Program-made: the position numbers and the translations under genes
Notes under the pieces: generated by a model
Told to the model about the DNA's origin: nothing
What the model saw: the letters and a program-made list of their open reading frames with translations, nothing else
Database searches by the model: none
Source: a virus
Reading direction: 5' to 3' (one strand)
Length of the DNA: 33,890 nucleotides
Virus record (IMG/VR): IMGVR_UViG_3300044733_004742
Span: 1 to 33,890 of that record
In this document: piece by piece, positions 14,585-27,307 of the stretch
Layout of the letters: each line of letters begins with the position of its first letter
Position numbering within the stretch: position 1 is the stretch's first letter

Positions 14585-14691
14585 TGGAAATGTTTTTCCT
14601 TTGCGGGATTGCAGTAGGATTTTTAATTGGATACCCTATGGGTTTGTTCATAGACAAATTAGATAAGAGGATAAAAAATGTCGGAAGATAA
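14584..14691 (+). CDS. 35-residue single-span membrane peptide
   Basis: The ATG overlaps the XapX stop (TAATG) and the frame ends 14 bases inside the next gene. The peptide has one hydrophobic helix (FFLCGIAVGFLIGYPMGLF) and a basic tail (DKLDKRIKNVGR), so it would insert with the C-terminus on the cytoplasmic side. Function unknown. Holin-like or signal-anchor peptides look similar, but no other lysis gene is near. Confidence 0.5.
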   Translation: MEMFFLCGIAVGFLIGYPMGLFIDKLDKRIKNVGR

Positions 14692-15013
14692 GAATACTCT
14701 AGAGCTAATTAGTTCTATTACGGAGTTTAATGACCTACATGAGTATATGGGTGATGATCAGCTAGATAGGGCATTGGCTATTGTAGTAAAGCTATTAATG
14801 AACCCAGACGTGCCTTCGGCAAAGGCTCCATATCTAATTATTGAACTTCAGGCTATGTCTACAAAGTTTTCTATGATGGCTTCGTACTATTCTACTATAG
14901 CTAAGGATAAGGCTGGCACTACAAATAACAATAAGAAGAATATTTATTATTCAGCAAAGGAGTGCATAGACAAACTCGTAGATGCACTTAAGTATGTGGT
15001 TAGGTATAACTAA
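14678..15013 (+). CDS. Helical protein of unknown function
   Basis: A 111-residue cytosolic-looking protein, mostly helical, with an AAGAGGAT ribosome site. Segments include FNDLHEYMGDDQLDRALAIV and a C-terminal helix ending in LKYVVRYN. It overlaps the secreted protein gene downstream by one base. No domain was recognised. It may be an unrelated passenger in the membrane/cobalamin stretch. Confidence 0.55.
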   Translation: MSEDKNTLELISSITEFNDLHEYMGDDQLDRALAIVVKLLMNPDVPSAKAPYLIIELQAMSTKFSMMASYYSTIAKDKAGTTNNNKKNIYYSAKECIDKLVDALKYVVRYN

Positions 15014-15462
15014 TGATTAAAAAAAGAATTATGCTGGTGTTTATTTTTATTGGTTCAGCAATAGGATTGTTTGTTTTAAATTCTAATCAACCAGAGTGCA
15101 TTAACCTATACGTAGACTACGGAAATAATTCTACAGTAGAAAAGAAATGCGTCAGTGCCGTTGGTGTAGTTAATTCTTTAGATTTATTAAAAGCAAATGG
15201 ATACAAAATAGAGGGAACAGCAAAGTATGGAAATGCTGTTGTCTGCAGAGTAAATAATTTTCCCAATAACAGTGTTGAAAAATGCCAAGACATGCCACCA
15301 GAAAATGCATATTGGGCCGTGTTAGTAAAAAAGAATCAGGCCTTGCCATTTCCAAGAAATGAATGGGGCTGGGCACAAAAGGGAATTAATGAAACTTTTG
15401 TTAGACCAGGGGACCACTTAGGCCTAGTATTTTCTACTAACGGAGAAGTAAGGTGGCCGTAG
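15013..15462 (+). CDS. Secreted or anchored transcobalamin-like (DUF4430-type) protein
   Basis: A 149-residue protein with an N-terminal signal or anchor (KKR, then a hydrophobic stretch at 7-22) and an extracellular-looking body with four cysteines (29, 46, 78, 91). The body has INLYVDYG (30-37), a SLDLLKANGY helix (55-64), KYGNAVVCRVNNFP (71-84), CQDMPPENAYWAVL (91-104) and FVRPGDHLGLVF (129-140). This order matches the transcobalamin C-terminal-like domain (DUF4430), found in vitamin B12 carriers and, in Actinobacteria, near ECF vitamin transporters. There is no lipobox ahead of Cys29, so a signal anchor is more likely than a lipoprotein. It lies two genes before a cobalamin adenosyltransferase, which supports a B12 role. 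Binding itself is inferred. Confidence 0.68.
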   Translation: MIKKRIMLVFIFIGSAIGLFVLNSNQPECINLYVDYGNNSTVEKKCVSAVGVVNSLDLLKANGYKIEGTAKYGNAVVCRVNNFPNNSVEKCQDMPPENAYWAVLVKKNQALPFPRNEWGWAQKGINETFVRPGDHLGLVFSTNGEVRWP

Positions 15463-15596
15463 AACTGTTAGAAGAAAAGGTTAAAAATAAATCTTTTCCA
15501 ATATTAATTGTTGCTCAGCTTTTTATAACAGTTATTGTTTTATCTGTAGTTAATGAAATTGCAGTAGATGTTTGGCGTTCTTTAAGGGGTCATTAA
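15453..15596 (+). CDS. 47-residue single-span membrane protein
   Basis: The GTG at 15453 lies 10 bases inside the end of the preceding gene, and the TAA overlaps the next ATG (TAATG). The product has a charged N-terminus (VELLEEKVKNK), one membrane helix (FPILIVAQLFITVIVLSVV) and a short cytosolic or external tail ending in WRSLRGH. It sits between a secreted transcobalamin-like protein and a cobalamin adenosyltransferase, so it may anchor or couple the two. No family was recognised. GTG is a rare start here, but no ATG is available. Confidence 0.55.
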   Translation: MAVELLEEKVKNKSFPILIVAQLFITVIVLSVVNEIAVDVWRSLRGH

Positions 15597-16093
15597 TGGT
15601 AATACTAAGTAAAATTTATACTAAAACTGGTGATGATGGGCAAACCTCTAACGCTAATAACGAAAGGGTGTCTAAGACTAGCCCTATGATGGAAGCAATA
15701 GGTGCTGTAGATGAGGCCAACTCTGCTATTGGAATGGCAACCGATGAGTATAATGATATTATTGAAAGAGTTCAGAGCGACTTATTTGATCTTGGTGCAG
15801 AGCTTGCGGGGGCCCCAACAATAACAATATCTGAAAACAGAGTGACATATTTAGAAAATGTAATTGATGACTACAATGAATATCTAGAGCCTCTAAGATC
15901 TTTTGTTTTACCAACAGGTCCACTGCACAATGCAAGGACTGTTGTAAGAAGGGCAGAGCGTGAAGTTTGGAAGATAGAAAATGTAAATCCAAACATTGCT
16001 AAGTATTTAAATCGTCTATCAGACTTATTGTTTGTTATGGCTAGATATCACAATAAAGGAAAAGAAAAAATGTGGGTGCCAAACAATGGGTAG
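15596..16093 (+). CDS. PduO-type ATP:cob(I)alamin adenosyltransferase
   Basis: A 165-residue enzyme that transfers adenosine from ATP to cob(I)alamin, making coenzyme B12. The ATG at 15596 overlaps the upstream stop; an in-frame TTG at 15572 would add residues not seen in the family. Diagnostic segments are KIYTKTGDDGQTS (6-18), ERVSK (23-27), AIGAVDEANSAIG (34-46), PTGPLHNARTVVRRAEREVW (106-125, with Arg114, Arg118, Arg119 and Glu121 of the catalytic RxxxRRxE) and YLNRLSDLLFVMAR (137-150). Length fits a lone PduO domain (about 180). All key positions appear intact, so it should be active. It would support adenosylcobalamin enzymes such as class II ribonucleotide reductase. The Cas4-like gene follows. 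Confidence 0.9.
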   Translation: MVILSKIYTKTGDDGQTSNANNERVSKTSPMMEAIGAVDEANSAIGMATDEYNDIIERVQSDLFDLGAELAGAPTITISENRVTYLENVIDDYNEYLEPLRSFVLPTGPLHNARTVVRRAEREVWKIENVNPNIAKYLNRLSDLLFVMARYHNKGKEKMWVPNNG

Positions 16094-23348: not shown

Positions 23349-23439
23349 ACAACTTGTATATAGATTAATGTATTTTATTCAAAAGATTAAAATTAAATTA
23401 TTTAAAAAAAATAAAGATAAAAGAAGGTATATATATTAA
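23341..23439 (+). CDS. 32-residue basic membrane-like peptide
   Basis: The ATG lies 8 bases inside the end of the SGNH gene and the TAA overlaps the next ATG (TAATG), the usual coupling here. The peptide has an amphipathic hydrophobic first half (LRQLVYRLMYFIQKI) and a strongly basic second half (KKNKDKRRYIY). It may be a peripheral membrane peptide or just a coupling leader. The coding call rests on overlaps only. Confidence 0.35.
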   Translation: MLRQLVYRLMYFIQKIKIKLFKKNKDKRRYIY

Positions 23440-24869
23440 TGATAATTATGGGAATAAATGAAACCTATCATGATGCCTCCGTATCTTTAATTAAAGACGG
23501 AGAAATCCTTTTTGCGGGGCATGCAGAAAGATATAGTAAAGAAAAAAATGATTGGTTTACAAATGATAGTTTAATTAAAAATGCATTAGAATATGGGTAT
23601 CCAGATAAAATAGCTTATTATGAAAACATATGGCTTAAAAAGGCCCGTATAGCCATTCATGGCGGTTTTGGTGGGGACAAGCCATACTTTCTTCAAACAC
23701 CCCTTAAAAAAATTCCTAGGGCTTCTTTTGGGCATCACAAATCTCATGCAGCAGCAGGGTACTACACAAGTAATTATACAGATGCGGTTATTGTAGTTTT
23801 AGATGCAATTGGAGAATTTAATACTTCTACGGTATGGGTTGGGGAAGGATCTAAAATTAAACAAGTTTACAAACAAAACTACCCAATAAGTTTTGGACTT
23901 TTTTATTCTGCATTCACCCAGCTTATAGGCTTAATGCCAAATCAAGAAGAATATATTATGATGGGGATGGCGGCTTACGGAGACTGGACAAAATATTATA
24001 AACAGGTAGATAACTATTTCCCTAAATATGATAAACAAAAATATAATTTTCACAAAGGCATTACTGACTGGGGATGGGTTTCAGAGCAAGACAAGTTTGA
24101 TATTGCCGCAGCAGTTCAGGTAGTTTATGAGCAAAGGCTTATAGACTTTATGAATATGGCTAAATCAATAACAGGAAAAACAAATTTAGTTTTTATGGGA
24201 GGATGTGCCCTTAACTGTTCTGCTAATACATTGCTATGGAAAATATTTGATAGCGTTTGGATTATGCCTAACCCAGGAGATGCTGGTAGCTCATTAGGCG
24301 CAGCAGCGTTATTGTATGGAAAGCATTTAAATTGGAGTGGCCCCTATCTTGGGCATAATATTGTTGGAAAGTATCCAGTTGATGAAATTGTAAATGGCAT
24401 TAAGCAAAATGGAATTGTTGCCGTTGCAAACGGCAGGGCTGAGTACGGACCCAGAGCGCTTGGAAATAGAAGTATTTTTGCTGACCCAAGAGATATTTCT
24501 ATAAAAGATAAAGTAAATAGCATTAAGCAGAGAGAAAAGTTTAGGCCATTTGCTCCAGTAATTTTAGAAGAGTTTGCTAGCGAATGGTTTGATATGAATT
24601 TTTCTTCTCCATACATGCAGTATGCAGTTAAATGTAAATATCCAGATAAAGTTCCAGCAGTTGTTCATGTTGACGGAACTTCAAGAGTGCAGACTGTAAA
24701 TAAAGAACAGCACCCAGGCCTGCATATGGCTCTAAGAAAATTTTACTGGGAAACTGGTATACCAATGCTGCTAAATACAAGCTTAAATATTAAAGGGCAA
24801 CCAATTGTAAATGATTTAAATGATGTTAAAATCTGGCAAGAGCATTACGGGGAAAAAATATATGTCTGA
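23439..24869 (+). CDS. Carbamoyltransferase (NodU/CmcH/TobZ family)
   Basis: A 476-residue O-carbamoyltransferase. The Kae1-like N-terminal domain has GINETYHDASVSL (5-17, Asp12), the metal-binding FGHHKSHAAAG (97-107, His99/100/103) and VVLDAIGE (119-126). GGCALNCSAN and a GRAEYGPRALGNRS block (about 333-346) follow. The C-terminal part has KFRPFAPVI, HVDGTSRVQTV and LLNTSLNIKGQPIV, as in the YrdC-associated family. Such enzymes move carbamoyl from carbamoyl phosphate through carbamoyl-AMP to a hydroxyl of an antibiotic, nod factor or, in some phages, hydroxymethylcytosine. The acceptor here is unknown. It is somewhat shorter than the usual 540-600 residues. Confidence 0.9.
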   Translation: MIIMGINETYHDASVSLIKDGEILFAGHAERYSKEKNDWFTNDSLIKNALEYGYPDKIAYYENIWLKKARIAIHGGFGGDKPYFLQTPLKKIPRASFGHHKSHAAAGYYTSNYTDAVIVVLDAIGEFNTSTVWVGEGSKIKQVYKQNYPISFGLFYSAFTQLIGLMPNQEEYIMMGMAAYGDWTKYYKQVDNYFPKYDKQKYNFHKGITDWGWVSEQDKFDIAAAVQVVYEQRLIDFMNMAKSITGKTNLVFMGGCALNCSANTLLWKIFDSVWIMPNPGDAGSSLGAAALLYGKHLNWSGPYLGHNIVGKYPVDEIVNGIKQNGIVAVANGRAEYGPRALGNRSIFADPRDISIKDKVNSIKQREKFRPFAPVILEEFASEWFDMNFSSPYMQYAVKCKYPDKVPAVVHVDGTSRVQTVNKEQHPGLHMALRKFYWETGIPMLLNTSLNIKGQPIVNDLNDVKIWQEHYGEKIYV

Positions 24870-25911: not shown

Positions 25912-26220
25912 ATGGATGACTTTATGGATTACGACTCAAGGCTAAGCCACTACATTGAAATTGGGGCTATATCAATTGAGGGGGTAGATCCAAATGGAGA
26001 ACTAATACTTTCTGTTACTGATAAGGCTAAAGAGTTAGCTCCAGATTTATGGCAGGCTCATATAGAATACGTAGACAAACAATTAATTAATTTGTATGAA
26101 AAGGGATTAATTGAAGTAGAATACAATGAAAATTTAGAGGCAACATTTAAACTTTCTCCCACAGCGGTAGAAGACATAAAAGATAAAGGCATATGGTTAG
26201 TAGATGAAAAAGATGAATAA
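25912..26220 (+). CDS. Winged-helix-like small acidic protein
   Basis: A 102-residue acidic protein starting at a leaderless promoter. A helix-strand pattern (AISIEGVDPNGELILSVTDK, then a helix, then LINLYEKGLIEVEYNENLEA) could be a winged-helix domain, but no signature is clear. It overlaps the next gene by 17 bases. As the first gene after a promoter in the block it might be a local regulator. This is inferred. Confidence 0.5.
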   Translation: MDDFMDYDSRLSHYIEIGAISIEGVDPNGELILSVTDKAKELAPDLWQAHIEYVDKQLINLYEKGLIEVEYNENLEATFKLSPTAVEDIKDKGIWLVDEKDE

Positions 26221-27307
26221 TATTGTTATCCCCCTTGCAGGAGAAGGCAAGCGCTTTGCAGATTTTGGATATGACGTGCCTAAGCCTCTTATTGTGGTTG
26301 ATGGCAAAACTTTAATTGAGCATGCAATAACAACAATTGGTATACCTGGAAGATTTATTTTTATCACCAAAAAATATAAAAATGAAAAATATAACCAAGA
26401 GCTTACATCTATATTAAAATCATGTGCTCCAGATTGTGTGGAAATAAAAGTCGACGTTAAGCATCGTGGTGCTGCAGACGCAGTTATGTTTGCTAAAGAA
26501 TATATTGATAATGATAGTCCACTATATAATGCTAACTGCGACCAGATACTTGATTGGGATGCAGAAGAGTTTGTAAATACAGTAACAAATAATGGGTGCG
26601 ACTCTGCTGTAGTTTTGTTTAAGTCTAGAAGCCCAAAGCATGGGTATGCAGAAATTGTAGACAATAAAGTAACTAAATTAGTAGAAAAAGATCCTATAAC
26701 AGATCATGCTATGGTAGGCTTTCATTATTGGGCAAAGGGTTCAGATTTTGTAAGGTCTGCAGAAGCTTTATTAAACAACGATGGATCAGATGAGGTTTAT
26801 ATATCTCATACAATAAATGGATTAGTAAATGATGGATACTATGTTTATCCATATTTTATTCCAAATAACGAGTATATTAATCTCGGCACCCCTGACGACG
26901 TGGCTTTGTATTTAGGCAAGGTTAAAGAATTTTATACAGAAAAACCAAAAACAATATTTTGCGATATAGATGGAACAATAATTAAGCATGCACATATGTT
27001 TAGCGAGATAAGCAAACATAAATCAGAAGCGCTTGCTGGTGTTGTTGCAAAGTTTAATGAGTGGGACGCAAAGGGCCATAAAGTAATTTTAACTACCGCA
27101 AGAAAAGAATCGGCAAGGCAAGGTACTGAAAAAGCTTTAGAAGAGTTAGGTCTTTCTTGGGACCTTTTAATTATGGGGGTTACTAGCGGCACAAGAGTTT
27201 TAATTAACGATAAATTAAATAGAAGAGACCCAGATAGAGCAATTGCAGTAAGTTTAATTACAGACGAAGGATTTATTTCAGAGGATTGGTCTAAATACGG
27301 ATTATGA
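26204..27307 (+). CDS. Nucleotidyltransferase fused to a HAD phosphatase
   Basis: A 367-residue two-domain enzyme. Residues 1 to about 240 are a sugar-phosphate or alcohol-phosphate nucleotidyltransferase (IVIPLAGEGKRFADFG, then a Lys-Pro pair at 27-28, a YNANCDQIL segment and an EYINLGTPDD segment near the end). From about 247 a HAD domain starts (IFCDIDGTIIKH, with nucleophile and acid/base Asp), then VILTTARKES and a GVTSGTRVLINDK segment. The pairing could activate a sugar or polyol phosphate while removing an unwanted phosphate, as in some capsule pathways. Two ATGs (26204, 26213) are possible starts. A reverse-strand frame at 26197-26664 is a shadow. Confidence 0.85.
   Translation: MKKMNNIVIPLAGEGKRFADFGYDVPKPLIVVDGKTLIEHAITTIGIPGRFIFITKKYKNEKYNQELTSILKSCAPDCVEIKVDVKHRGAADAVMFAKEYIDNDSPLYNANCDQILDWDAEEFVNTVTNNGCDSAVVLFKSRSPKHGYAEIVDNKVTKLVEKDPITDHAMVGFHYWAKGSDFVRSAEALLNNDGSDEVYISHTINGLVNDGYYVYPYFIPNNEYINLGTPDDVALYLGKVKEFYTEKPKTIFCDIDGTIIKHAHMFSEISKHKSEALAGVVAKFNEWDAKGHKVILTTARKESARQGTEKALEELGLSWDLLIMGVTSGTRVLINDKLNRRDPDRAIAVSLITDEGFISEDWSKYGL

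Follow-up and report, generated by a model that had tools for sequence, protein, structure and literature searches.

A phage gene cassette coupling a protein of predicted transcobalamin-type fold to a cobalamin adenosyltransferase, and its likely role in B12 supply

The genes of the cassette and their products

The window, meaning the whole stretch of DNA analysed, is a 33,890-base IMG/VR virus record with a G+C content of 34.8%. Between positions 15013 and 16093 it carries three genes in tandem, referred to here as SEC, TM47 and ATR.

15013..15462, + strand: SEC, 149 aa, exported or membrane-anchored four-cysteine protein with a predicted transcobalamin-type beta domain
15028..15078, + strand: hydrophobic segment at the N-terminus of SEC (residues 6-22), either a signal peptide or a membrane anchor, hydropathy 2.84
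15091..15459, + strand: mature beta domain of SEC (the modelled part, residues 27-149; 41-sequence alignment, AlphaFold2 model)
15453..15596, + strand: TM47, 47-aa single-span membrane protein with the C-terminus hhWR(S/A)h(T/R/K)GH
15596..16093, + strand: ATR, 165 aa, PduO-type cob(I)alamin adenosyltransferase (PF01923, TIGR00636)

TM47 opens with a GTG at 15453, overlapping SEC by 10 nt, and closes with a TAA at 15594-15596 that forms a TAATG junction with the ATG of ATR at 15596, the latter frame ending in a TAG at 16093. The gene preceding SEC (14678-15013, phrog_9818) is likewise joined to it by a TAATG. A TTG start for ATR at 15572, given by the ORF lister, was rejected, as it is not the start common to relatives. 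All three frames are found again in numerous viral contigs, beyond what chance would give, and evolve under purifying selection, with median dN/dS values of 0.055 for ATR, 0.254 for SEC and 0.48 for TM47 (sequence pairs with 0.1<pS<0.6).

SEC contains cysteines at residues 29, 46, 78 and 91 and a single N-terminal hydrophobic stretch (mean Kyte-Doolittle 2.84), with no lipobox seen by eye at its N-terminus. Neither SEC nor TM47 of the window matched any Pfam, PHROG or NCBIfam family, except for a chance-level match of HTH_11 to SEC (E 0.19). Assignment of SEC to DUF4430 (PF14478) by HMM was rejected (0 of 14 genomes or records at E<=10), single members of the SEC family also gave no match to this HMM, and a SEC sequence profile retrieved nothing convincing from the PDB (best E 0.48 and 1.7).

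An AlphaFold2 model of residues 27-149 based on 41 sequences (pLDDT 91.2, pTM 0.84) matched the beta domains of transcobalamin, haptocorrin and intrinsic factor, together with 3u7z, at Z-scores of 10.0-11.0 (rmsd 2.6-3.0 across 93-96 residues), the next fold scoring 6.9. These proteins occupy ranks 1 to 14 of the 50 PDB entries listed, headed by bovine transcobalamin (2bb6; Z 11.0, rmsd 2.7, 94 residues) and including human transcobalamin represented by its beta domain alone, bound to cyanocobalamin (5np4; Z 10.5); 3u7z is a bacterial protein titled putative metal binding protein. A first model from an alignment of 15 phage SECs (pLDDT 57), superseded by the 41-sequence one, had returned the same top 15 at Z 7.9-9.0. 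Foldseek also placed the transcobalamin family at ranks 1 to 16, with E values of 3.5e-3 to 3.8e-2, no match reaching E<=0.001; a BFVD search with the good model gave none at that threshold either.

The predicted beta-domain fold is alike in SEC and in transcobalamin, intrinsic factor and haptocorrin, but sequence identity is only 14-21%. Transcobalamin also uses an N-terminal alpha6/alpha6 domain in the same chain. SEC, in contrast, is a phage product that consists of the beta domain alone after its N-terminal membrane segment, without any alpha6/alpha6 domain. From this model and from the loci of its bacterial relatives, SEC is predicted to be an extracytoplasmic cobalamin-capture protein, a prediction for which there are no corrinoid-binding data.

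TM47 has one span (mean hydropathy 2.94 at residues 17-33), and its conserved parts are a mostly basic N-terminal tail, the span itself and the hhWR(S/A)h(T/R/K)GH end. The possibility that this end is kept merely through its overlap with the start region of ATR was rejected, because the codons vary (four for arginine, three for glycine) and three loci (L230, L273, L300) keep the end without any ATG overlap. A dN/dS of 1 or more is reached by 4% of TM47 pairs. The local TM47 profile has five rows, of which one (L009) was cut out of frame; the result was kept because the listed matches all end in WR(S/A)..GH. TM47 is thus likely to be a real protein; its partnership with SEC is inferred from co-occurrence, and no role is assigned to it.

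ATR is a PduO-type cobalamin adenosyltransferase by profile and motifs. It matches PF01923 along the whole domain (2.5e-50, 171 bits against a cut-off of 24) and also TIGR00636 (154 bits against 108), i.e. at full length and over the curated cut-offs of the family; a PHROG search matched no family. The motifs YTKTGDDG, VDEAN, RRAER and NRLSDLLF, which have a catalytic role in these enzymes, are all present in the window protein and invariant across six viral ATRs, save that the second L of SDLLF is M in L302. The closest solved structures, 2g2d (8e-32) and 6wgs (9e-32), have similar motifs; the window protein differs from them by several short gaps and in being phage-encoded. Adenosyl transfer to cob(I)alamin is inferred, as there are no assay data.

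The initial annotation, made without database searches, had placed all three genes as given here, with their TAATG junctions and short overlaps, and this held. Its call of a PduO-type cobalamin adenosyltransferase held as well, at the level of profiles and motifs and with activity inferred. Its description of SEC as DUF4430-type failed by HMM and is borne out only by fold, the proposed vitamin-carrier fold having been upheld on structure prediction by the best PDB matches, which are beta domains of the transcobalamin family.

Occurrence in viral contigs and association with ribonucleotide reductase

Scans of IMG/VR confirmed 245 ATR and 163 SEC stretches. The 287 viral loci contain 78 distinct SEC sequences, which fall into 31 clusters at 80% identity, with TM47 beside SEC in 27 clusters, ATR in 29 and a ribonucleotide reductase gene (RTPR, see below) upstream in 17. 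Since many of these loci came from ATR queries, a recount was made on the SEC-query set (136 loci, of which the 115 with flanks form 18 clusters): TM47 was present in 17 of 18 clusters, ATR in 16 and RTPR just upstream in 12, and in every one of the 18 SEC lay beside ATR or RTPR. Two of these clusters have no ATR adjoining SEC, one of them (G433) carrying ATR elsewhere on the contig. Among 15 ATR-query clusters, SEC was found in 12, and three had ATR without SEC or TM47. Clusters and contigs are not independent, some of the 32 long SEC-bearing contigs considered below being near-identical (L240, L241 and L242 score alike), and in some cluster representatives (L296, L300) the upstream sequence is too short to reveal RTPR.

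In a set of ATR loci SEC and TM47 occur or are missing as a pair. Of 47 distinct ATR loci, 31 carry both genes and 16 carry neither, with no discordant case (the set is L001-L124 across lineages; of its 121 ATR loci, 22 with a short upstream flank were excluded, and merging identical sequences reduced the other 99 to 47). In 15 of the 16 loci lacking the pair, the homologue of the 14678-15013 gene and ATR are 5 nt apart. The commonest gene order is RTPR-SEC-TM47-ATR, and RTPR-ATR-SEC, ATR-SEC and RTPR-WhiB-SEC-TM47-ATR also occur; the order varies while the genes remain neighbours.

Two variants may be recorded here. In four contigs (L307, L308, L309, L313) the cassette is reversed: ATR precedes SEC, and TM47 gave no match. 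Several lineages carry within or beside the cassette (L105:1558-1872, also L278, L299 and L353) a gene that we take to be WhiB-like by its motif, without any NCBIfam match.

The ribonucleotide reductase (RNR) adjoining the cassette is, by homology, an adenosylcobalamin-dependent ribonucleoside-triphosphate reductase of class II. The copy in L132 scores 357 bits against TIGR02505 (cut-off 340) and matches the Lactobacillus enzyme 1l1l at 8e-98; it retains the NPC.E motif and, at the C-terminus, the cysteine pair, both catalytic in RTPR. Virioplankton viruses and a Thermus phage have class II monomeric RNRs (RTPR, NrdJm) of this same family. Profile searches were run in 24 relatives for PF02867, 32 for TIGR02505 and 35 for PF01923. 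RTPR was detected by TIGR02505 in 26 of 32 long SEC-bearing contigs, over the curated cut-off in 12 of the 26; the six without it may be fragments. The clade of the window has RTPR in six of eight long contigs, away from the cassette, and the window itself, being a 33.9-kb fragment, has no RNR match (PF02867). ATR was detected by PF01923 in 31 of 33 viral contigs. The B12-binding domain PF02310, searched for in 24 relatives, gave two weak matches below cut-off (L133/G004, L134/G007).

Isolate phages present a different picture. A related RNR occurs in 1138 of 50,697 isolate phage records (E<=1e-20). No SEC was found in these records (two matches, E 0.3), and ATR-like DNA was found in 15 of them, with identities no higher than 42%; of these records 13 are unannotated and the other two are one Acinetobacter phage under two records. 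With RTPR common, SEC not found and ATR rare and distant in isolates, the cassette appears to be a special extra, observed in this analysis in environmental contigs. No ATR was found in mycobacteriophage Gaia, in which RTPR is present. The actinophage DSL-LC01 from lake water (L361, OQ999401.1) has an RTPR 61% identical to that of L132 and no ATR.

Bacterial relatives of SEC and probable hosts

A search with the 15-sequence phage SEC alignment brought up 17 loci from named actinobacterial records, the best-scoring being that of Aurantimicrobium minutum (34%), and a profile of phage and bacterial SECs gave matches in 146 of the 394 genomes sampled from the class (E<=0.001), the weaker matches covering only part of the domain. 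The four cysteines and a PP..AYW motif are largely common to phage and bacterial members, and both features are shared with the SCO2322 family (NF040672) of actinobacterial ECF/cobalamin loci, which 26 of the 41 SEC alignment members match at E<=1 (best 9e-11); the window SEC does not match it at this threshold. Many SCO2322-type members differ from the phage protein in being longer and in having ECF genes as neighbours, frequently together with a toroid protein resembling prenyltransferases, whereas the window cassette and its seven neighbours (ten proteins) gave no ECF or toroid-protein match.

The bacterial loci are linked to cobalamin transport and regulation. In 16 of 17 long loci SEC lies directly upstream of CbiQ/EcfT, the exception (L138) being a contig that ends there, and 25 of 30 short loci, which extend only 1.5 kb on each side, have some ECF gene nearby. 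A toroid protein of the prenyltransferase type often precedes SEC. Riboswitches were searched for in 16 of the long loci (all but L138) and in 20 short ones: 12 of the 16 long loci have a same-strand cobalamin riboswitch upstream and the other four showed none, and the short loci gave four matches.

In one streamlined actinobacterial family (genomes of 1.1-1.2 Mb, in keeping with acI/Nanopelagicales) an AdoCbl or cobalamin riboswitch lies directly before SEC in five of five cases, three of which were already among the short-locus matches and one of which (L152) is the L135 gene again. SEC occurs in only five of 61 sampled genomes of this family. No ECF gene was found within 1.5 kb of SEC in the three loci examined, and in one genome SEC is flanked on both sides by opposite-strand genes of other function. 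Three streamlined genomes hold the cellular SECs most like that of the window in the alignment (46-47%), and their ATRs are 57-60% identical to the window ATR. No cobalamin riboswitch was found on the phage cassette or elsewhere in the window.

The sole RNR large-subunit match in two of the three streamlined genomes is the B12-dependent NrdJ, the third having a class Ib RNR in addition. FecCD was found in none of four host-like genomes and CbiQ was missing from two of the three streamlined ones, so that these searches did not identify the importer that SEC would feed. Three genomes of about 1.2 Mb (G159, G189, G261) were seen to carry SEC behind a cobalamin riboswitch without FecCD, and with a CbiQ match in one only. 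In a published reconstruction acI-B is predicted to be auxotrophic for adenosylcobalamin, and acI-A has a putative cobalamin transporter that was not expressed (PMC5574706).

The DnaE-type polymerase of the window is nearest to those of Streptomyces phages such as BillNye (57% identity), from which an actinobacterial host is inferred to be likely. More generally, the viruses bearing the cassette probably infect water-dwelling actinobacteria, again by inference. The window also encodes a NodU-like carbamoyltransferase (23439-24869), a protein with sugar nucleotidyltransferase and HAD matches (26204-27307), and a 645-aa ORF (26-1963) that has a TIGR02543 repeat stretch and no PHROG match at E<=0.001.

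Proposed function, alternatives and implications

The cassette is best read as a likely phage module for B12 supply and use, combining capture, adenosylation and use of the cofactor for dNTP production. The genes, their order, co-inheritance and homology, the predicted fold, the bacterial regulatory context and purifying selection constitute the evidence; corrinoid binding, delivery, the role of TM47, cofactor flow and host are inferred. The initial annotation had proposed that the genes jointly scavenge corrinoid and activate it for an adenosylcobalamin enzyme such as class II RNR, which is supported, with B12 binding remaining an inference. Of the observations it expected to bear on this, conservation of the SEC-TM47-ATR neighbourhood held in diverse viral contigs, and the class II RNR was found in most long SEC-bearing relatives, often directly upstream of SEC, though not in the window.

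In the proposed mechanism, SEC, tethered or secreted outside the membrane, would capture scarce corrinoid via its transcobalamin-type beta domain and hand it to a host importer, with TM47 as an inferred membrane partner. ATR would then add the adenosyl group in the cytoplasm, yielding coenzyme B12, which the phage RTPR, supplied from just upstream in many relatives and from a separate genomic position in most of the long contigs belonging to the window's clade, would use to make dNTPs for phage DNA. Expression of the phage SEC would not be switched off by B12: no riboswitch was found on the phage copy and the host-like SEC is preceded by one, suggesting escape from host B12 feedback.

The alternative that survives best, and remains possible, is that the cassette represents ordinary host-derived auxiliary metabolic genes (AMGs) feeding the B12 enzymes of the host (NrdJ, MetH) and not the phage RTPR. 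It is favoured by the two host-like genomes in which B12-dependent NrdJ is the sole RNR match, by the three that have their own ATR, and by the separation of RTPR from the cassette in the window's clade. Against it, RTPR, SEC, TM47 and ATR stand in tandem across many different SEC clusters, and the phages bring their own triphosphate reductase.

It is unlikely that SEC handles another ECF ligand, such as cobalt or another cofactor, or a corrinoid precursor, with ATR still making coenzyme B12 and being a neighbour only through a shared cobalt/B12 regulon. This reading draws on the bacterial SEC operons, which hold a CbiQ-type EcfT and cobalamin riboswitches; such riboswitches can also control cobalt uptake. 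Also, the S component of L137 gives only a weak match, to the general ECF_trnsprt model, and that of L135 matches nothing. However, the best fold matches other than 3u7z are B12 binders, and SEC of the three streamlined loci examined sits behind a cobalamin riboswitch without a nearby ECF gene, where imported cobalt would, by inference, help only a B12-making cell. In addition, the phages pair SEC with ATR and RTPR, which need finished corrinoid.

A cell-surface role of SEC and TM47 against competing phages (receptor masking or superinfection exclusion), with ATR incidental, is very unlikely: a secreted or anchored protein with a small membrane protein is a usual layout of such systems and the pair is missing together while ATR stays, but bacterial SEC relatives are cobalamin-regulated and ECF-linked, and SEC adjoins ATR or RTPR in all SEC-query clusters, nearly all of them (17) with TM47.

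The supply-and-use module thus remains the preferred reading, and some of its parts are of known kinds. Viral RTPR and phage cobalamin genes have been described; the cyanophage cobS, like the cassette, is a phage gene touching B12, but it serves B12 synthesis and not capture or activation (PMC9301287). Studies of viral RTPR treat the RNR alone, without any B12 capture or activation gene in the bearing sections (PMC10547690, PMC6459318, PMC12918982). An AMG survey mentions virion-fraction genes converting cobalamin to coenzymes without naming them (PMC13079714), and a viral ATR on its own may conceivably have been listed in such surveys already. What appears to be new is the coupling of a phage protein of predicted transcobalamin fold to ATR; the open-access literature searched, which excluded subscription journals and supplements, yielded no paper joining phage, ATR and a transcobalamin-like protein.

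According to Wu et al. 2023 (PMC10547690), RTPR viruses need a host that makes B12 or that assimilates and modifies a precursor, and may themselves control or boost its uptake or production. By naming concrete uptake and modification genes beside RTPR, the cassette makes this question of B12 supply testable. Also, a bacterial protein family with a predicted transcobalamin beta fold gains a likely role in B12 import, and phage replication is linked to a vitamin whose synthesis is beyond many plankton bacteria. A bolder reading, towards which the evidence leans only slightly, is that viruses of streamlined, B12-starved actinobacteria encode the whole vitamin line from capture through activation to use. 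If true, it would constitute a virus-encoded vitamin acquisition system, in which riboswitch-free capture lets infection force B12 import for the viral class II RNR.
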